Source: Geobacter sp.
GTDB lineage: Bacteria; Desulfobacterota; Desulfuromonadia; Geobacterales; Pseudopelobacteraceae
Direction: 5' to 3'
Assembly (NCBI GenBank): GCA_025360785.1
Contig: JANYBN010000207.1
Span: 1 to 64,000 of the forward strand
DNA length: 64,000 nt
Part shown: positions 21,069 through 29,789 of the stretch, piece by piece
Position numbering within the stretch: position 1 is the first letter of the stretch
Layout: each line of letters opens with the position of its first letter
The notes under the pieces: model-generated
Seen by the model: the letters and a program-made list of their open reading frames with translations, nothing else
What the model was told of the DNA's origin: nothing
Databases searched by the model: none
Made by a program: the position numbers and the translations under genes

Positions 21069-21144
21069 TGGTGGAGGTTAACGGGATCGAACCGATGACC
21101 TCGTCGCTGCCAGCGACGCGCTCTCCCAGCTGAGCTAAACCCCC
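21069..21144 (-). tRNA. tRNA-Ala (anticodon GGC), CCA encoded
   Basis: GGGGGTTTAGCTCAGCTGGGAGAGCGCGTCGCTGGCAGCGACGAGGTCATCGGTTCGATCCCGTTAACCTCCACCA folds as a cloverleaf. Confidence 0.97.
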
Positions 21145-21411: not shown

Positions 21412-21458
21412 CCGGGCAGATGCCTGGCGTAAAAAACAGACACCCGGCATCTGCCCGG
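21412..21458. other. Inverted repeat CCGGGCAGATGCC / GGCATCTGCCCGG
   Basis: Perfect 13-bp arms, 21-nt loop, upstream of the NHEJ operon. Confidence 0.7.
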
Positions 21459-21507
21459 CCTATTCTGCAACGTGGCGTGATTACAGATTAATTGCAATTT
21501 AGCCGTT

Positions 21508-21526
21508 AGGCATAATTCGTGGATTT
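21508..21526 (+). promoter_or_regulatory. GGCAY-N5-GTG motif upstream of the NHEJ operon
   Basis: AGGCAT-AATTC-GTGGATTT. Confidence 0.45.
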
Positions 21527-21569
21527 AAAACCGGAACGAAGAACAGAAACGTCTTGAAGGGAGATCGCT

Positions 21570-21764
21570 ATGACCTGGGAATACAAAATCATCTATATAG
21601 GCTTGGAAACTGAGGACGAAGATGAATATGAAACCAGGTTGCACAATGGCGTCCACGTTTTGAACGAACTGGGAAGCGAGGGATGGGAGCTGATCGGCTA
21701 CCTGCCGCACCTAATAACTGGAAAGCGCGCTAAATATCATGCCGTATTGAAGCGGCAATGCTGA
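21570..21764 (+). CDS. DUF4177-like small protein
   Basis: MTWEYKIIYIG...LNELGSEGWELIGYLP....HAVLKR. Confidence 0.85.
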   Translation: MTWEYKIIYIGLETEDEDEYETRLHNGVHVLNELGSEGWELIGYLPHLITGKRAKYHAVLKRQC

Positions 21765-21789
21765 TTTGAATTAACCCGGAGGAATAGCA

Positions 21790-22566
21790 ATGTCAGGAGG
21801 AACAATCTGGAAAGGATCGGTCCATTTCGGGGATATGGATGTGCCGGTGAAGCTTCATACTGCGGTCAAGGAAGAGCGGATTCAGTTTCATCTCCTTCAC
21901 CGGCGCGATCGTGTGAGATTGCACCAGCAGATGATCTGTGTATATGAAAAAACACCCGTACAGCCGGAAGCTCAGATCAAAGGATTTGAAGTGGAGGAAG
22001 GGAAATATGTCATCGTCGATCAGGAGGAACTGGAACAAACCACACCTGAAAGCAGCCGAATGATAGAAGTCCACGAATTCGTCAAGAGTTCACAGATCTA
22101 TCCTCTCTTCCTCGATCACGTCTACTATCTGGAGCCGGATTCAGAAATCTACGCATCAAGATATAACGAGCTTGTCGGGGCTTTGCAACGTATGTCCATG
22201 GCAGGGATCTGCACCTGGACCATGAGAAAGCGCTCCTATCTCGGAGCCGTTCAGGCAAGGGGAAAAATTCTGCGCCTGAGTACCTTGCGTTATGCCGATG
22301 AAGTGATTTCGGCGGCATCTCTGGAACTGCAGGAAATTCCCGTGTCCGAAAAGGAACTGAACATCGGGAGCGAGTTGATCAACCAGTTGACCGCGCCTTT
22401 TGAACCGCAGAAATTTAAGAATGAGCACCAGAAAAGGTTGCAGCAACTGATTGATAAAAAAGCCCGCGGCGAAAAAGTTGTACTCCTGCGCCCCAGGATC
22501 TTGCAGCCAACGGCACAGGACAAACTGCTTGAGGTTCTTGAAGCGAGTCTGAAAAAAGCCGCCTGA
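21790..22566 (+). CDS. ku: Ku protein, copy 1
   Basis: MSGGTIWKGSVHFGDMDVPVKLHTAVKEERIQFHLLHRRDRVRL; Ku fold through ...LINQLTAPFEPQKFKNEHQKRL. Confidence 0.95.
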   Translation: MSGGTIWKGSVHFGDMDVPVKLHTAVKEERIQFHLLHRRDRVRLHQQMICVYEKTPVQPEAQIKGFEVEEGKYVIVDQEELEQTTPESSRMIEVHEFVKSSQIYPLFLDHVYYLEPDSEIYASRYNELVGALQRMSMAGICTWTMRKRSYLGAVQARGKILRLSTLRYADEVISAASLELQEIPVSEKELNIGSELINQLTAPFEPQKFKNEHQKRLQQLIDKKARGEKVVLLRPRILQPTAQDKLLEVLEASLKKAA

Positions 22567-22579
22567 AGGAGAAAATATC

Positions 22580-23350
22580 ATGTGGAGCGGGACGGTCAGT
22601 TTCAGCCTGGTTGCGATTCCGGTGCGGTTGGTTAAAGCCGTCAAGCCCGGCCACATCACGTTTCGCACACTTCACCGCACAGATTACTCCCCCCTCGCGC
22701 GAAGGATGTACTGTCCAAAACACGAACAGATCGTCCCCCCTGATGAGATTGTCAGGGGCTACGAAATTGTTCCCGACCGATACCTGCCGATAACGGATGA
22801 GGAACTGGAGTCAGTGTCTCCGGAACGTAGTCGCACCATCGAGATTATCGAGTTCATCGATATGGATGAGGTTGATCCGATTTATTATGACCATCCATAT
22901 TATCTCGTTCCATTGAAAGGGGGCGAAAAAGCATATCGGCTGCTGGCCGAGGTGATGCGCCGGACGAACAGGGCCGGGCTCGCGAAATTCGTCATGGTTG
23001 AACGTGAATATCTCGTGGCGGTCATAAGCACCGAGGGGGCGCTGGCCATGATAACCCTCCATTACAGTGAGGAAGTACTGCCGGATGATGGCATTGCACC
23101 GAAGGAAGAGAAGATGGACGCCAAAGAGCTAAGCCTTATGGAACAAAGCATCAGGAACATGACAGCAGACTTTGATCCGGGAAAATATGCGAACAATCGC
23201 CGGGAAAGTGTCATGGAGCTTGTGAAGCTGAAGATGAAGGAACACGCTCCGGTGGAGGCCCCTGCAGTCGAAGAAGAAGCGGGAGTGGGCCCACCCGATC
23301 TGGTCGCGGCGCTGGAGGAAATCATGCGTGACGTGAAGAAGAGCCGATGA
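22580..23350 (+). CDS. ku: Ku protein, copy 2
   Basis: MWSGTVSFSLVAIPVRLVKAVKPGHITFRTLHRTDYSPLARRMYCPKH; IRNMTADFDPGKYANNRRESVMEL. Confidence 0.95.
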   Translation: MWSGTVSFSLVAIPVRLVKAVKPGHITFRTLHRTDYSPLARRMYCPKHEQIVPPDEIVRGYEIVPDRYLPITDEELESVSPERSRTIEIIEFIDMDEVDPIYYDHPYYLVPLKGGEKAYRLLAEVMRRTNRAGLAKFVMVEREYLVAVISTEGALAMITLHYSEEVLPDDGIAPKEEKMDAKELSLMEQSIRNMTADFDPGKYANNRRESVMELVKLKMKEHAPVEAPAVEEEAGVGPPDLVAALEEIMRDVKKSR

Positions 23351-24252
23351 GCCGCAAAGTCATTGAAATAGCCGGGAGAAGACTCGCCCTTTCCAACCTT
23401 GAAAAAGATCTCTACCCTTCCTGGGGTTTCACCAAGGCACACGTCCTGGATTATTACCGCCGGATTGCTGCGTTCATGCTGCCGCACCTGAAAGACCGGG
23501 CCTTGACCCTGAAGCGCTATCCCGATGGAGTGGGAAAGGCCTTCTTTTTTGTGAAACGTTGTCCTGACTACCATCCGGTCTGGGCGAAAACGGCCGAGGT
23601 CCGTCGCGGCAGCAGCAAAATGATGACGGTCTGTCTTGCCAACAATCTGGAAACACTGCTCTGGGTGGAGAACCTTGCGTCCCTTGAGCTCCATGTGCCG
23701 CTGTCCAGAACAGGTTCCCCTGAAACGCCCGATGCCATGGTCTTCGACCTGGATCCCGGCGAGCAGGCCACCATTCTGGATTGCGCCATTGTAGCGCTGA
23801 TACTGCGGATACTGCTCACCAGGCTGCGGCTTGCAAGCTATCCCAAAACCTCGGGCCAGAAGGGACTTCATGTCTATGTTCCCTTGAACTACCGGGAGGC
23901 GACGTTTGAGGACACAAAGATCTTTTCAAAAACGGTAGCGGTGATCATGCAGAAAAATTATCCGGATCTGGTGACCGCAAAAATGGCGAAGGAACAACGT
24001 ACGGGAAAGGTCTTTATCAACTGGTCCCAGAACGATGCGTCCAAGACGATGATCTGCGTCTATTCCCTGAGGGCCCGGGAAAAGCCTTTTGTTTCGTTTC
24101 CGTTAGAATGGAAGGAACTGGAGCGTCTGGTCAGGCAAGGTAAACCGGAAAGCCTGCAGGTCATGTATTCGGAAGCCGTGAGCAGGGTCGAAGAAAGTGG
24201 TGACCTGTTTCGGCAGGTGCTGATTAAAAAGCAGAAGCTGCCGCATCTATAA
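23347..24252 (+). CDS. LigD-type polymerase/primase domain protein (stand-alone POL)
   Basis: LSNLEKDLYPSWGFTKAHVLDYYRRIA, VFDLDPGEQA (DxD), PKTSGQKGLHVYVPL. Confidence 0.94.
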   Translation: MSRKVIEIAGRRLALSNLEKDLYPSWGFTKAHVLDYYRRIAAFMLPHLKDRALTLKRYPDGVGKAFFFVKRCPDYHPVWAKTAEVRRGSSKMMTVCLANNLETLLWVENLASLELHVPLSRTGSPETPDAMVFDLDPGEQATILDCAIVALILRILLTRLRLASYPKTSGQKGLHVYVPLNYREATFEDTKIFSKTVAVIMQKNYPDLVTAKMAKEQRTGKVFINWSQNDASKTMICVYSLRAREKPFVSFPLEWKELERLVRQGKPESLQVMYSEAVSRVEESGDLFRQVLIKKQKLPHL

Positions 24253-24352
24253 CATATTCGCAAAAACCTAAACCGGACAATGCTGACACAAACAAAACTT
24301 GTATGTTGTTATAAAGTTTTGCTCATATCAAATACTCATTGGACTTTCAAAG

Positions 24353-25957
24353 ATGGGATTACGGGAATATACAGCCAAACGGCAATTCGAGAAAACGCCC
24401 GAACCGAAGCCGGACTCTCATCAAGAGAAGCACCGTCTCGTGTTTGTTTTGCATAAGCACGCAGCCCGGGCTCTTCATTACGATCTCAGGCTGGAATTGG
24501 GAGGGGTTCTGAAAAGCTGGGCGGTGCCGAAGGGTCCCTCGCTTGATCCTGCCGTAAAAAGGCTGGCCGTTATGGTTGAAGACCACCCGTTTGATTACAA
24601 GGATTTCGAAGGCGTCATCCCGGAGGGGAATTACGGCGCGGGCAGCGTCATCATCTGGGACCGGGGCTTTTATCACCATCCTTTTGCAGGAGATGAGAAC
24701 GAAAACGAGCAGCTTCTTCTGAACGGATTACGAAAAGGTGATCTGAAGTTTGTGCTCGAAGGGGAAAAGCTTCATGGCGAATTTGCGCTGGTCAAGACGG
24801 GCAAAGACGGGAAGTCGTGGCTGCTCCTGAAAAAGAAAGATCGATATGCGGCCACAGGAGACATCCTCAAGGAGAACCTTTCTGTCGTGTCCCGCAAAAC
24901 GCTGGAGGAGACACTCGAAGCCGGCACTCAGAAATCTTTTCGACAAAAAAAAACAAGTCAGATCAGACTTCACGAAGCAATGGAAAACGAAGAGCTGAAG
25001 GATGCGCCGGTTAAGCCGATGCCGCACAATATAAAACCGATGCTCGCGACCCTGGTCAAGGAACCGTTTGACGATCCGGATTGGCTTTTTGAAGTTAAAT
25101 GGGACGGTTACCGCGCCGTAGCCGATATCCGGGACGGAAAAGCCTTTCTTTATTCCCGGAACGGGATCTCGTTCGAAGAAAAGTTTTATCCTGTTGTGGA
25201 GTCGTTGCGGAAATTCAGATTCGATGCCGTTCTGGACGGTGAAATCGTAGTCGTGGATGACCTTGGGATCCCTGATTTCCAGCTGCTGCAGCATTACCGG
25301 AAGTCGGAAAACGGTCATCTGCTCTACTACGTCTTTGACCTGCTGTACTTCCAGGGGCATGACCTGACCAACCTTCCCCTACTCAGGAGAAAAGAACTCC
25401 TGAAAAAAATTCTCCCGGTTCTCCCGAACATACGCTTCAGCGATCACGTATTGAAGGAGGGAGTCCTTTTTTTCAATGTCGTCAGGAAAAAAGGACTGGA
25501 AGGGATCATCGCCAAACATGCTCAGAGTACTTACCAAACAGCCGGAAGGAGCCGGCAATGGCTGAAGGTGAAGACGCGGCTCACGCAGGAAGGAGTGATT
25601 GCAGGATTCACGGAACCGGGAGTTGGAAGAAAGCATTTCGGCACCCTTATCCTGGGGGTATTCAAGGAGCAAGAACTGACCTGCATCGGTCATGCGGGAG
25701 GCGGCTTCACCACGAAGGAGCTGCAAGATATACACGAAAAGCTGGAACCCCTGATCCAAAAGGAATGCCCGTTTGACGTGAAGCCGGTTACCAATACCCC
25801 CGCCACCTGGGTGAAGCCGGAGCTGGTCTGCGAGGTTGTTTTCCACGGCTGGACCGACGAGGGAGTCATGAGACAGCCGGTATTCCTCCGGATGCGCGAG
25901 GACAAAACCGCCGGCGAAGTGGTGCAGGGCAACGACGGCAAAGGAGCTAAACCATGA
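24353..25957 (+). CDS. ligD: ATP-dependent DNA ligase D, PE-LIG architecture
   Basis: PE domain HKHAARALHYDLRLELGG...AVPKGPSLDP; ligase KWDGYRAVADIRDGKAFLYSRNG; start at ATG 24353. Confidence 0.94.
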   Translation: MGLREYTAKRQFEKTPEPKPDSHQEKHRLVFVLHKHAARALHYDLRLELGGVLKSWAVPKGPSLDPAVKRLAVMVEDHPFDYKDFEGVIPEGNYGAGSVIIWDRGFYHHPFAGDENENEQLLLNGLRKGDLKFVLEGEKLHGEFALVKTGKDGKSWLLLKKKDRYAATGDILKENLSVVSRKTLEETLEAGTQKSFRQKKTSQIRLHEAMENEELKDAPVKPMPHNIKPMLATLVKEPFDDPDWLFEVKWDGYRAVADIRDGKAFLYSRNGISFEEKFYPVVESLRKFRFDAVLDGEIVVVDDLGIPDFQLLQHYRKSENGHLLYYVFDLLYFQGHDLTNLPLLRRKELLKKILPVLPNIRFSDHVLKEGVLFFNVVRKKGLEGIIAKHAQSTYQTAGRSRQWLKVKTRLTQEGVIAGFTEPGVGRKHFGTLILGVFKEQELTCIGHAGGGFTTKELQDIHEKLEPLIQKECPFDVKPVTNTPATWVKPELVCEVVFHGWTDEGVMRQPVFLRMREDKTAGEVVQGNDGKGAKP

Positions 25958-26658
25958 AGCTACATATTGGCACAAGCGGATATGGGTATAAGGAATGGAA
26001 AGGGATTTTTTACCCTGAAAAGATCACGCCCAAGGAGATGCTGCACTTCTACGGAGAGCGTTTCAACGCGGTTGAAATTAATTATACATTCTATCACATG
26101 CCCACTGTGGCAGGCCTGTCATCATGGGCGGAACAGGTCCCCGACGATTTTTACTTCGCGCTCAAGGCGCCCCAGGTCATAACGCATCAGAAGCTGTTGA
26201 AAAATGTTGGCGAGGAGGCAAAGTATTTCTTCAAGACGCTGACAGTCCTGGAAAGGAAAATGGGGCCGGCCCTGTTCCAGTTCCCGGGGAGTTTTCGTTC
26301 TAATCCAACGTCACTGGAAGAATTTATCGCCCTGATTCCTGCAAATGTACACTGCGCCTTCGAGTTCCGCAGCAAGAGCTGGTTTAACAAGGAAGTTCTG
26401 GAACTTCTCCGTGCAAGGGGGTGCAGCCTGTGCACTGCGGATACTAACGAGAAACCGACAAACGAGATCATCAGCACGGCCCCATGGGGGTACCTGCGCC
26501 TGCGCCGAACCGATTATACCGAGGCTGATCTGTCCCAATGGCTGGACAGAATTTTGGCGCAGAAGTGGGAACAGGCTTTTGTATTTTTCAAGCACGAGGA
26601 AGAAGCCAAAGGGCCCGAACTGGCGCGGCAGTTTCGTGGGCTTGCCGATGCAAGGTGA
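25954..26658 (+). CDS. DUF72 domain-containing TIM-barrel protein
   Basis: MKLHIGTSGYGYKEWKGIFYPEKI...ERFNAVEINYTFY; HCAFEFRSKSWFN. Confidence 0.93.
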   Translation: MKLHIGTSGYGYKEWKGIFYPEKITPKEMLHFYGERFNAVEINYTFYHMPTVAGLSSWAEQVPDDFYFALKAPQVITHQKLLKNVGEEAKYFFKTLTVLERKMGPALFQFPGSFRSNPTSLEEFIALIPANVHCAFEFRSKSWFNKEVLELLRARGCSLCTADTNEKPTNEIISTAPWGYLRLRRTDYTEADLSQWLDRILAQKWEQAFVFFKHEEEAKGPELARQFRGLADAR

Positions 26659-26734
26659 ACCTTTACCCTGCCTGGATGGTTCTGCGCGCGACAATGATTA
26701 TTCCGATTTCAAATCAAGATACTTCGCCCGATAA

Positions 26735-27529
26735 TTGGAAATATCCATGGAAATGGTGGTTGTCTTTATAAAAAACGAAAAACCGCCCTGCTACGAAGCA
26801 CTGACGGCGCCGAACGTGCGTATCGAGTTCATACCGTTCCATGCGGCGGCTTCTGTCCGGGAACACACTATTGATCTGGCAGTTATTGACTGCGGCAACG
26901 ATTTTGAAGCCGGCTTGCGCGTTCTGAAAGAAATAAAACAGTGTCGTCCCGACCTACCTGTCATCTTCATAGCTGAGGCAAGTTCCGAAGAAGTAGTCCT
27001 GGAGGCTTTCAAGCTTGGTGCCAGGGACTACTTCAGGAAACCGCTCGACCTGTTCGCGTTAAGAGAAACTGCAGCAAAGATCCTGGGATTCAAACGGATT
27101 CGGACGGAAAACGGTCCGGAGCAATCCGGCAGGAGTAATGATGTGATCCGGGCGCAATTCCCTCTTTCCGATAATCTGCCGGAAAAAGTGCTGCGCGCAA
27201 TCAGCTACATTAATGACAATCTGTTTACCCCACTCTGTCTGGATTTGATTGCCCGGCAGGCCTGTCTGAGTAAATTTCATTTCTGCCGCCTGTTCAAACT
27301 CAACGTAGGGGTGAGTCCTAAGCAGTACTGCGTATTCCGGCGGATAGAGTACGCCAAACAGATTCTCTGCAGGCAAGGTCAGAATATTACTAATGCCGCT
27401 TTTGAATCCGGCTTCAACGACGTTACGGGGTTCATCAGACAATTCAAAAAAGCAACCGGAGTAACTCCCGGCGCCTACCGGGAATCCCAGGGTTCGGCTC
27501 TCACCAAAAACAGCAATATCCTCCGATAG
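26735..27529 (+). CDS. Response-regulator receiver plus AraC-type HTH protein
   Basis: LAVIDCGND...PVIFIAEASSEEVVLEAFKLGARDYFRKPLDL; C-terminal AraC HTH (LSKFHFCRLFK...GFNDVTGFIRQFKKATGVTPGAYR). Confidence 0.9.
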   Translation: MEISMEMVVVFIKNEKPPCYEALTAPNVRIEFIPFHAAASVREHTIDLAVIDCGNDFEAGLRVLKEIKQCRPDLPVIFIAEASSEEVVLEAFKLGARDYFRKPLDLFALRETAAKILGFKRIRTENGPEQSGRSNDVIRAQFPLSDNLPEKVLRAISYINDNLFTPLCLDLIARQACLSKFHFCRLFKLNVGVSPKQYCVFRRIEYAKQILCRQGQNITNAAFESGFNDVTGFIRQFKKATGVTPGAYRESQGSALTKNSNILR

Positions 27530-27635: not shown

Positions 27636-29789
27636 ATGAAAACAAGCGAGAGGTCAGTTGCACTGAGTTTCTTAGCGGCAGTATTTATTATGGCTCAAAT
27701 GCTGGGTGGTGAGGCATTGGCGCAATCGAGCTATTACACAGGTCAAGGGTGTAATGGCTGCCATACCTCGGTTGTTACATGTAATGGTTGCCATGGACAT
27801 GGAGCCCATCCGAGCAGCGCCAAAAATGCCATCAATGTTGCAGGGACAACCAACAAAAGCTCCTATGCTCCCGGTGAGACCGTGACAGTCACCATTACCG
27901 GCGGATACCGTACCGGTTGGTTTAGGGCTGTTCTTTATAATCAGAACATGGTTGAACTGGCGAGATCAACCGGAAACGACAGCGGCGTAGGTAGCTCAAC
28001 CACATATCCCGCTACGTTGAGCGCTCCGGCGCCTACATCACCGGGCAGTTACAATTGGAAAGTTGCCTGGTACGGAAACCAGTATGATTCAGGAGGGGCT
28101 ACCTTCGGCTCCGGCTGGACCCCTGACGCCAATAATCCTGACCATGGCTCAGAGATTGTCAACATCGGCGCTGCTTTTACCGTTGCCACAGCCACTCTGC
28201 CTGCGCCAACAATCAGCTTGATTGACACCAACAGCCTTGTTCAGGGGACAACAAACCAGATCATTGCCATTACCGGTACCAACCTGACCGGCGCCACGAT
28301 TAAATTCAGTAATACCGGGATCAGTGCCGGACCCGCAACTGTCACCGCCACTTCAATACGTCTGCCGGTTAGTGTTGCCATCAACGCCGCCACCGGAGCG
28401 GGAACTGTCAGCATCTCCACCGGCAGCGGCAGCGCCTCTGTCCCCTTCAGCGTAACTTCTATAGCCATTCAGGCGCCGGCAATCAGTATGGTTACCCCCG
28501 ACAGCCTCATCCAGGGAGCAATCAATCAACCCGTAACCATTGCCGGAGCAAACCTTACCGGCGCCACAGTCAGCTTCAGCAACTCAGGCATCACCGGAGG
28601 CCAGGCTTCCGTCGCGGCAACGTCGATCAGACTCCCGGTCAATATAGCTGCCAATGCATCGAGCGGCGCGGGTATCATTACCGTCACCACGGCAGGAGGA
28701 AGCGCTTCCGGCACCTTCAGTGTCATGCCAAGAGCCAGTGCGCCGGTCCTGACAGTCTCTGCGCTCGTCAACGGGTCATACACAAATAACGCCACACTCA
28801 ACATCAGCGGCACCGTAACAGCTGCCGGCGGCGTTCAATCCGTCACTGTCAACAACCAGCCAGTTACTGTCATGTCCGACGGGTCTTTCACTACCGCCCT
28901 TACCCTTAATGCCGGTGCCAATACCATCACGGTTATCGCCACGGACAACAACGGCAATCAGAAAAGCGATATCCGCAGCATCAACTATGATCCGATTGCT
29001 CCAGTCCTGGCGGTTTCAACTCCAGCTGACAATAGTTCAAGTATTTTGTCCTATGTATTAGTGAGCGGCAGCATTAACGAGACTTCCACGATCGCCATCA
29101 CTGATAACGAAGGCAGCCCGCAATCCGCCACCGTAAATGGCAACAATTTCAGCTCCACCATTAATCTGGCACCAGGTGTGAATACTATTAACATAATAGC
29201 AACCGATCTGGCCGGCAACACATCCAGCGCCAAGCGAACCGTGGCCTACGATACCTCCAAGTTTATGCTTGCAATAACCAACCCTCCCCAGGATATGACC
29301 ACCAACCGGTCTGCACTGGTCCTGATGGGCAATGTCACTAATAGCTCAAAAGACATAACCGTTACCATCACCATGGCCGGCAAGTCTTACACCCAATTGG
29401 TCACAAACGGCATCTTCAAACAACGGCTTACCCTGACAAAGGCAGGGTTGTATCCCATCGCCGTCTCCGCCAAAGATGCTGCCGGTAACAACAGTACTGT
29501 AACCCGCAACGTGATTTACCGTCCTGCCAAAACAGGTGAGCGTGAAGACGACAATGGCTCAACCAGTGGCACAACAGGCGGCACAACCAATGGAACGACA
29601 GGTGGCACAACCAATGGTACAACCGGAACCGTCACCAGTCACCCCTTCGGCTGGACCAACCCGAAGAGCAGCCACCCGAATTATGTGGAAAAAAATGGTG
29701 TCAACGGCTGTGTCAGCTGCCACAGCATCGATCCGGCTTCCAAAGGACAGACAATGAGCTGCTACAATTGCCACGGCAAGCAATGGTAA
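27636..29789 (+). CDS. Exported c-type cytochrome with Ig/TIG-like repeats
   Basis: Signal peptide; four CXXCH motifs (CNGCH x2 near N-term, CVSCH and CYNCH near C-term) flanking repeated Ig/TIG-like modules. Confidence 0.85.
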   Translation: MKTSERSVALSFLAAVFIMAQMLGGEALAQSSYYTGQGCNGCHTSVVTCNGCHGHGAHPSSAKNAINVAGTTNKSSYAPGETVTVTITGGYRTGWFRAVLYNQNMVELARSTGNDSGVGSSTTYPATLSAPAPTSPGSYNWKVAWYGNQYDSGGATFGSGWTPDANNPDHGSEIVNIGAAFTVATATLPAPTISLIDTNSLVQGTTNQIIAITGTNLTGATIKFSNTGISAGPATVTATSIRLPVSVAINAATGAGTVSISTGSGSASVPFSVTSIAIQAPAISMVTPDSLIQGAINQPVTIAGANLTGATVSFSNSGITGGQASVAATSIRLPVNIAANASSGAGIITVTTAGGSASGTFSVMPRASAPVLTVSALVNGSYTNNATLNISGTVTAAGGVQSVTVNNQPVTVMSDGSFTTALTLNAGANTITVIATDNNGNQKSDIRSINYDPIAPVLAVSTPADNSSSILSYVLVSGSINETSTIAITDNEGSPQSATVNGNNFSSTINLAPGVNTINIIATDLAGNTSSAKRTVAYDTSKFMLAITNPPQDMTTNRSALVLMGNVTNSSKDITVTITMAGKSYTQLVTNGIFKQRLTLTKAGLYPIAVSAKDAAGNNSTVTRNVIYRPAKTGEREDDNGSTSGTTGGTTNGTTGGTTNGTTGTVTSHPFGWTNPKSSHPNYVEKNGVNGCVSCHSIDPASKGQTMSCYNCHGKQW
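29567..29630 (+). repeat. Imperfect 24-nt tandem repeat encoding GTTGGTTN
   Basis: GGCACAACCAATGG(A/T)AC(G/A)AC... repeated; T/G/N-rich linker in protein. Confidence 0.75.

Follow-up and report, generated by a model that had tools for sequence, protein, structure and literature searches.

The first 64,000 nucleotides of contig JANYBN010000207.1 from a Geobacter sp. genome (GenBank assembly GCA_025360785.1), hereafter the window, carry an operon for nonhomologous end joining (NHEJ) in which two tandem Ku genes, ku1 and ku2, are followed by a stand-alone LigD-type polymerase (POL) and a protein joining a 3'-phosphoesterase (PE) to a ligase (LIG). We consider it likely that this is a self-contained NHEJ operon built around an obligate Ku1/Ku2 heterodimer that is polar and has a single synaptic arm. 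Judged from sequence, a physical heterodimer of the two proteins is very likely. The initial annotation had raised a heterodimer as an alternative to the usual homodimer, and this suggestion is well supported by co-conservation, by the tree, and by the way the synapsis interface is divided over Ku1 and Ku2, with fold prediction contributing compatibility only. Bacterial Ku is regarded as a homodimer whose function, according to three structural papers from 2025-2026, depends on symmetric arms polymerizing into filaments (PMC12784961, PMC12658125, PMC12784962). What is new here is a phylogenetically broad two-subunit Ku NHEJ system, independent of the rhizobial case discussed below, with a proposed, testable mechanism based on one synaptic arm.

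The synapsis interface of Ku1 and Ku2

Each arm of the bacterial Ku-Ku synapsis is formed by hairpin-1 and helix alpha2 of one protomer and helix alpha3 of the other (PMC12784961, PMC12658125, PMC12784962). Hairpin-1 is the GLVNIP motif at residues 29-34 of Bacillus subtilis Ku (bsKu), and the bsKu substitutions L30G and N32E abolish oligomerization while sparing DNA binding (PMC12784961). L13A/V14A has the same effects in Mycobacterium tuberculosis (Mtb) Ku, and the corresponding M. smegmatis mutant shows no more repair than a deletion mutant (PMC12658125). Using bsKu numbering, we asked where the conservation seen in single Ku proteins is lost in each subunit. The Leu30 hairpin anchor, present in 68/68 single Ku proteins and 57/57 Ku2 sequences, is found in 0/60 Ku1 sequences, most of which (46/60) have Asp or Glu instead. 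At alpha3, Leu213 is kept in 62/62 Ku1 and 67/69 single Ku sequences and in 0/57 Ku2. Position 210 is Ala in 68/69 single Ku proteins; every Ku1 sequence (62/62) has Gly or Ala there, and Met, Ile, Leu, or Val predominate in Ku2. Among core columns, position 30 is the most divergent in one direction and position 213 the second most divergent (first in another run) in the other. Across three alignments, random column sets equaled the contrast between interface halves in 1-4 of 50,000 draws and circular shifts in 0/224, and the same partition is significant in each of two further pairs taken singly (genomes G158 and G407).

Within Ku1, hairpin-1 and alpha2, which belong to the same arm, are lost together, and alpha3, which belongs to the other arm, is kept. 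The combination expected of a canonical symmetric Ku, a GLVN(I/V)P hairpin and a canonical alpha3 in one chain, is thus split over Ku1 and Ku2. A Ku1 homodimer would pair a dead hairpin with a good alpha3 and a Ku2 homodimer would do the reverse, so neither would have an intact arm and only the heterodimer would have a complete one, and exactly one. This residue-level split is our main argument for the predicted heterodimer.

The asymmetry extends beyond the synapsis surface. The second of the DNA-binding motifs in each arm (bsKu 19-23, 36, 106, 126, 128, and 161) persists in Ku1 and has eroded in Ku2, with Arg161 in 62/62 Ku1 versus 8/57 Ku2 sequences. The C-terminal tail is positively charged in 62/62 Ku1 (median +6) and negatively charged in 45/57 Ku2 (median -3), compared with 0/71 negative tails in single Ku (median +6). 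Because the DNA-binding motif and the tail charge differ between the subunits, DNA gripping seems to fall to one arm and synapsis to the other, as judged from homologous positions. The Mtb inter-protomer metal sites (His35/Cys48/Cys51 and Asp26/His27/Asp28/Trp169/Glu172) were also checked and failed to separate a heterodimer from a homodimer.

Both subunits keep the Ku fold and the C-terminal helix. An AlphaFold2 model of the window's ku1-ku2 as one chain, with TGAA at the ku1 stop read as Gly and 56 alignment rows, has a predicted local distance difference test score (pLDDT) of 82.7 and a predicted template modeling score (pTM) of 0.77; for a locus from Candidatus Abyssobacteria (L122), joined through a 20-residue disordered linker, the values are 87.6 and 0.83. 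By our own estimate, halves placed at random would give a pTM near 0.5, so the relative placement of the Ku1 and Ku2 halves seems to be predicted with some confidence. A Foldseek search with the linked model recovered the monomer fold only, with 9vnq, 9i91, and 8v53 (B. subtilis and M. tuberculosis Ku) as best matches, followed by Ku70/80.

Spread and ancestry of the paired ku genes

The window operon represents one instance of a conserved cassette in the order ku1-ku2-pol-PE/lig, to which a DUF72 gene is often added. Drawing on 141 genomes of the order, a phylum sample, a named-genome scan, and a sample of 296 Nitrospirota, we assembled a set of cassettes from Desulfobacterota, Nitrospirota, and several further phyla, with 64 distinct Ku1 genes in all. 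Ku is present in 44/141 genomes of the order, either as one Ku or as two in a row in fixed order. The pair also occurs beyond Desulfobacterota in Nitrospirota, in metagenome-assembled genomes (MAGs) labeled Myxococcota, and in Poribacteria, Abyssobacteria, FCPU426, and Fibrobacterota; the nearest named loci, from genomes of the same genus, are those of Geobacteraceae bacterium GWC2_53_11 and Desulfuromonadaceae bacterium STCSWMC_55. The literature available to our searches contained nothing on paired Ku of the Geobacter type, and as far as we could find the cassette is widely spread among Desulfobacterota, Nitrospirota, and several candidate phyla and is undescribed.

Gene order among relatives, which the initial annotation had named as a check, is strongly conserved. 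Ku2 lies directly after Ku1 in 56/57 loci with enough sequence, POL comes next in 51/54 loci by automatic count, and PE-LIG is present in 47/49. Among the three POL misses, L088 has an extended POL frame and L141 a POL-PE-LIG fusion, and true absence is limited to L150, which is also the sole exception for Ku2. At that locus (L150:2835-3537, a Nitrospirota MAG), a frameshifted Ku1 relic with an intact DUF72 gene upstream lacks Ku2, POL, and ligase; the cassette has decayed as a unit. The pair is the only Ku in 9/12 cassette genomes searched whole; of the remaining three, one is the relic and Ku1 sits at a contig end in the other two. Scans of the genome catalogues gave the same picture. In the single-Ku Geobacterales that we examined, LigD is a fused PE-LIG-POL protein and the Ku belongs to another clade. 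Mean column identity across the set is 75% for Ku1 and 76% for Ku2. A natural Ku1-Ku2 fusion suggested by a 541-codon open frame in G561 proved false, there being two separate open reading frames (ORFs).

Several loci show other states of these genes. Ku2 is split into two frames at L133:8811-9595 and L144:8780-9521, where the other cassette genes are intact, from either sequencing error or early decay. An intact cassette-type Ku1 near a contig end in a Candidatus Methanoperedens (archaeal) MAG (L138:3720-4490) may be due to horizontal transfer or contamination. A genome of the same phylum, G469, has two identical tandem Ku genes before a fused LigD (L094:8473-10563), possibly a very recent duplication of the kind from which Ku1/Ku2-like pairs could start, or an assembly artifact.

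In a maximum-likelihood tree, Ku1 forms one clade (support 100/100) and Ku2 another (100/99). In G158 and G407, which have tandem Ku genes and a fused LigD, the first Ku groups with Ku1 (100/95) and the second with Ku2 (97/89); the two resulting groups are sisters (87/93). This topology indicates that Ku1 and Ku2 stem from one duplication, which is older than the split between cassette and fused-LigD lineages, since each clade has members from G158 and G407. Single-Ku genomes hold proteins of neither clade. Pairs of the Ku3/Ku4 type from Agrobacterium, Sinorhizobium, and Paracoccus are placed elsewhere in the tree. Orthology with rhizobial Ku3/Ku4 was rejected in the approximately unbiased (AU) test, both as one common clade (p = 7e-5) and with the first rhizobial Ku joined to Ku1 (p = 0.0115), and Ku pairs have therefore arisen at least twice.

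The alphaproteobacterial pairs repeat part of the pattern. In ten such pairs, including a Sinorhizobium meliloti pSymB pair and nontandem pairs from Devosia and Bosea, one partner has exchanged Leu30 in 10/10 cases, for Glu nine times and for Ala once, and retains Ala210. The second partner retains Leu30, and its Ala210 has given way to a bulkier residue in 9/10 cases. The Devosia genes are convergent (L193:4917-6694) and the Bosea genes divergent (L197:1581-3322); neither pair shares an operon, yet Leu30 is lost in one partner. The rhizobial Ku3/Ku4-LigD4 system, known from S. meliloti and represented by tandem pairs on A. fabrum pAt and S. meliloti plasmids, resembles the cassette in having two adjacent, diverged ku genes, one of whose products is without Leu30 and the other without the small residue at 210. 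It differs in being an independent duplication in which alpha3 is otherwise little changed, and the A. fabrum pair adjoins a LIG-only gene, unlike the POL and PE-LIG of the cassette. Genetic work by Dupuy et al. in 2019 reportedly inferred a Ku3-Ku4 heterodimer, which we take as a lead only. The Ku3/Ku4-LigD4 pathway of S. meliloti is distinct from that of Ku2-LigD2 (PMC12844678). Heterodimeric Ku may have evolved in bacteria at least two times by a similar route, with Leu30 lost in one subunit and the matching alpha3 position in the other, giving a polar, one-synapse Ku; we regard the case for this as evenly balanced. Positions 30 and 210/213 could serve as a sequence rule to spot candidate heterodimeric Ku in genomes with two ku genes.

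Proposed mechanism and its alternatives

We propose that Ku1 and Ku2 clasp each other like the halves of a bacterial Ku homodimer and form a ring that threads a DNA end. The synapsis-competent arm would consist of Ku2 hairpin-1 and alpha2 with Ku1 alpha3. The opposite arm, made of Ku1 hairpin-1 and alpha2 with Ku2 alpha3, would have lost its synapsis surface, its Ku1 part retaining the residues that grip the minor groove. Ku1 would also retain the usual basic tail, Ku2 having lost Arg161 and acquired an acidic one. With one intact arm per heterodimer, a pair of heterodimers, each on its own broken end, should make a single contact through the Ku2 arms. The product would be a discrete and capped synapse of the two ends, where symmetric Ku forms a filament. 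POL and PE-LIG would act as LigD, and DUF72 may be an optional, possibly DNA-processing helper. We lean slightly toward capped, polar synapsis of this kind on the basis of the residue patterns described above.

Several observations weigh against this reading. Alpha3 is also an intradimer "pillar" (PMC12784962), and its change in Ku2 could reflect dimer packing; the Mtb alpha3 substitutions S201A/Q197A did not stop filaments (PMC12658125), and AlphaFold3 models kept their assembly with Mtb residues 12-15 set to Ala (PMC12784962). The whole-interface test does not reach significance for the A. fabrum and Paracoccus pairs, in which only positions 30 and 210 match. The cassette sequences come mostly from MAGs, and the AlphaFold2 models of linked chains speak for compatibility with a heterodimer, not for a preference over homodimers. 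Taken together, the pillar role of alpha3 and the tolerance of the AlphaFold3 models lend some weight to a heterodimer in which the hairpin-1 and alpha3 changes are mere repacking and the complex still makes filaments. We hold this to be the less probable course, as the anchor that most Ku1 proteins have exchanged for an acidic residue is one whose mutation abolishes oligomerization experimentally, and as the losses in Ku1 fall on both elements of one arm and leave the alpha3 of the other.

It is unlikely that Ku1 and Ku2 each homodimerize and do different jobs from one operon, such as end protection and synapsis. Homodimers and heterodimers were both considered possible for the three Ku proteins of S. 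ambofaciens (PMC5124664), and the Ku fold and C-terminal helix retained by both subunits also speak for this reading. However, either homodimer would be without an intact synapsis arm, the two genes virtually never occur apart and were lost as a pair in L150, and neither clade occurs in single-Ku genomes. We give very little credence to Ku1 being a degenerating paralogue or a regulator of Ku2 with no role of its own in the ring. It scores below Ku2 against the Ku Pfam model and has lost conserved hairpin residues, but its conservation across the set is on a par with that of Ku2, and Arg161 and Leu213 are invariant in its 62 sequences.

The putative Ku1/Ku2 heterodimer can be set beside several known systems. 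The canonical Ku homodimer with LigD, as in B. subtilis, M. tuberculosis, and single-Ku Geobacterales, has the same Ku fold and the same LigD domains with catalytic residues kept, but a single, symmetric Ku; the cassette differs in its apparently obligate Ku pairing, split interface, and separate POL. Eukaryotic Ku70/Ku80 is likewise a heterodimer of duplicated Ku with polarity, a property predicted here for Ku1/Ku2. It has vWA and SAP domains, which Ku1 and Ku2 lack (Pfam finds the Ku core only), and it stems from a separate duplication event (PMC11936186), whereas the cassette Ku works with a bacterial POL and PE-LIG. The NHEJ system of Methanocella paludicola has separate Lig, Pol, PE, and Ku proteins (PMC8073936), and the cassette similarly has a stand-alone POL; it departs from that type in having PE and LIG in one 534-aa protein and two Ku proteins. 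A widespread lineage of Ku whose two arms have been dealt to two proteins would be a natural separation-of-function experiment in which the joining of ends by filaments or by single synapses becomes directly testable, and a prokaryotic parallel to the origin of Ku70/Ku80.

LigD activities and neighboring genes

The initial annotation had described an NHEJ operon with two tandem ku genes and a split LigD on one strand, and the genes were found as described (Table 1). Ku1, ku2, POL, and PE-LIG share one strand over window positions 21790-25957. The two Ku proteins are adjacent and clearly diverged, as had been stated, at about 33% identity, with a similar value for the pairs of relatives. Both ATGA-type junctions are real, one between the ku2 stop and the POL start (23347-23350) and the other between the ligase and DUF72 genes (25954-25957), and the polymerase is indeed a gene separate from PE-LIG, with a 100-bp gap and no overlap between them. 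A search of the whole genome, 3.9 Mb and of Geobacterales/Desulfuromonadales type, of which the window is a stretch of one contig, found exactly two Ku proteins, one LigD-type POL, and one ATP-ligase domain, all inside the operon.

Table 1. Genes and Ku interface elements in and around the NHEJ operon (window coordinates).
Feature	Position	Strand	Details
DUF4177 small protein, neighbor	21570..21764	+	64 aa; PF13783
ku1, first Ku subunit	21790..22566	+	258 aa; PF02735/TIGR02772, 232 bits
Ku1 residues 13-19 FGDMDVP, degenerate hairpin-1 loop	21826..21846	+	Asp at Leu30 position
Ku1 residues 187-200, canonical alpha3	22348..22389	+	Ile192/Gly193/Leu196/Leu200 = bsKu 209/210/213/217; helix in AlphaFold2 model
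ku2, second Ku subunit	22580..23350	+	256 aa; PF02735/TIGR02772, 246 bits
Ku2 residues 8-14 FSLVAIP, intact hairpin-1 loop	22601..22621	+	Leu anchor in 57/57 Ku2
Ku2 residues 181-194, degenerate alpha3	23120..23161	+	Met187/Ser190 replace Ala210/Leu213; helix in AlphaFold2 model
pol, stand-alone LigD-type primase-polymerase	23347..24252	+	301 aa; PF21686 2.5e-82
PE-LIG, 3'-phosphoesterase + ATP-dependent ligase	24353..25957	+	534 aa; PF13298 + PF01068 + PF04679
DUF72 protein	25954..26658	+	234 aa; PF01904
Receiver-AraC protein, neighbor	26735..27529	+	domain search

The operon has the components of bacterial NHEJ: both Ku proteins exceed the curated TIGR02772 cut-off of 150 bits, and POL, PE, and LIG domains are present with their catalytic residues. 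In PE-LIG, the phosphoesterase residues H36/H42/D44/R46/H78/Y82 are conserved and match Pseudomonas aeruginosa His42/His48/Asp50/Arg52/His84/Tyr88 at a constant offset (PMC8656161), and the ligase Lys249 is conserved as well. The DLD motif of POL (Asp134/Asp136) is also conserved, and across the three LigD activities the catalytic residues are conserved at at least 98%. POL and PE-LIG are thus predicted to supply the LigD activities jointly. LigD is not a single three-domain polypeptide here, an arrangement that is "nonconventional" under the scheme of PMC7719229. A Syntrophobacterales MAG (L141:9618-12224) has POL and PE-LIG in one 868-aa ORF in the order POL-PE-LIG, which is the mycobacterial order, and this fusion suggests that the two genes act as one LigD. 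A strict coupling of two Ku genes with split LigD was rejected, since LigD is fused in G158 and G407 despite their tandem Ku genes and POL-PE-LIG is a single ORF in L141.

The initial annotation had also suggested that the small outer genes could belong to the system, which holds in part for DUF72 and fails for the other two. DUF72 lies downstream in 28/45 cassettes and upstream in two more, being on the other side of ku1 in L174 and L150. DUF4177 (1/46 loci) and the receiver-AraC gene (1/42 loci) stand beside the cassette only in the window and are therefore neighbors outside the conserved system. The DUF72 protein is related to TM1631 (1vpq, E = 1.4e-23), a predicted endonuclease-IV-like, DNA-binding TIM barrel whose proposed role in DNA repair comes solely from comparing structures and from simulation (PMC3828134). 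The presence of DUF72 in about two-thirds of NHEJ cassettes offers independent, if unproven, context support for a TM1631-type repair role. Its assignment as an end-processing factor is tentative, and the literature available to our searches held no paper on DUF72 with LigD.

A reading of the operon as a defense system was dropped, since PADLOC matched none of its genes, and a plasmid origin of the cassette was dropped in the absence of any plasmid record with Ku1 or Ku2 above 60% identity. Scanning the operon region for promoters and terminators gave chance-level results only. Upstream of the operon, an intergenic 19-nt inverted repeat (a stem-loop with 89% complementarity; 21412-21458) lies between tRNA-Ala(GGC) on the minus strand (21069-21144) and DUF4177. 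Downstream, positions 27636-29789 encode a secreted-looking protein of 717 aa that has CxxCH heme-type motifs at both ends and repeated Ig-like/Glucodextran_B domains.

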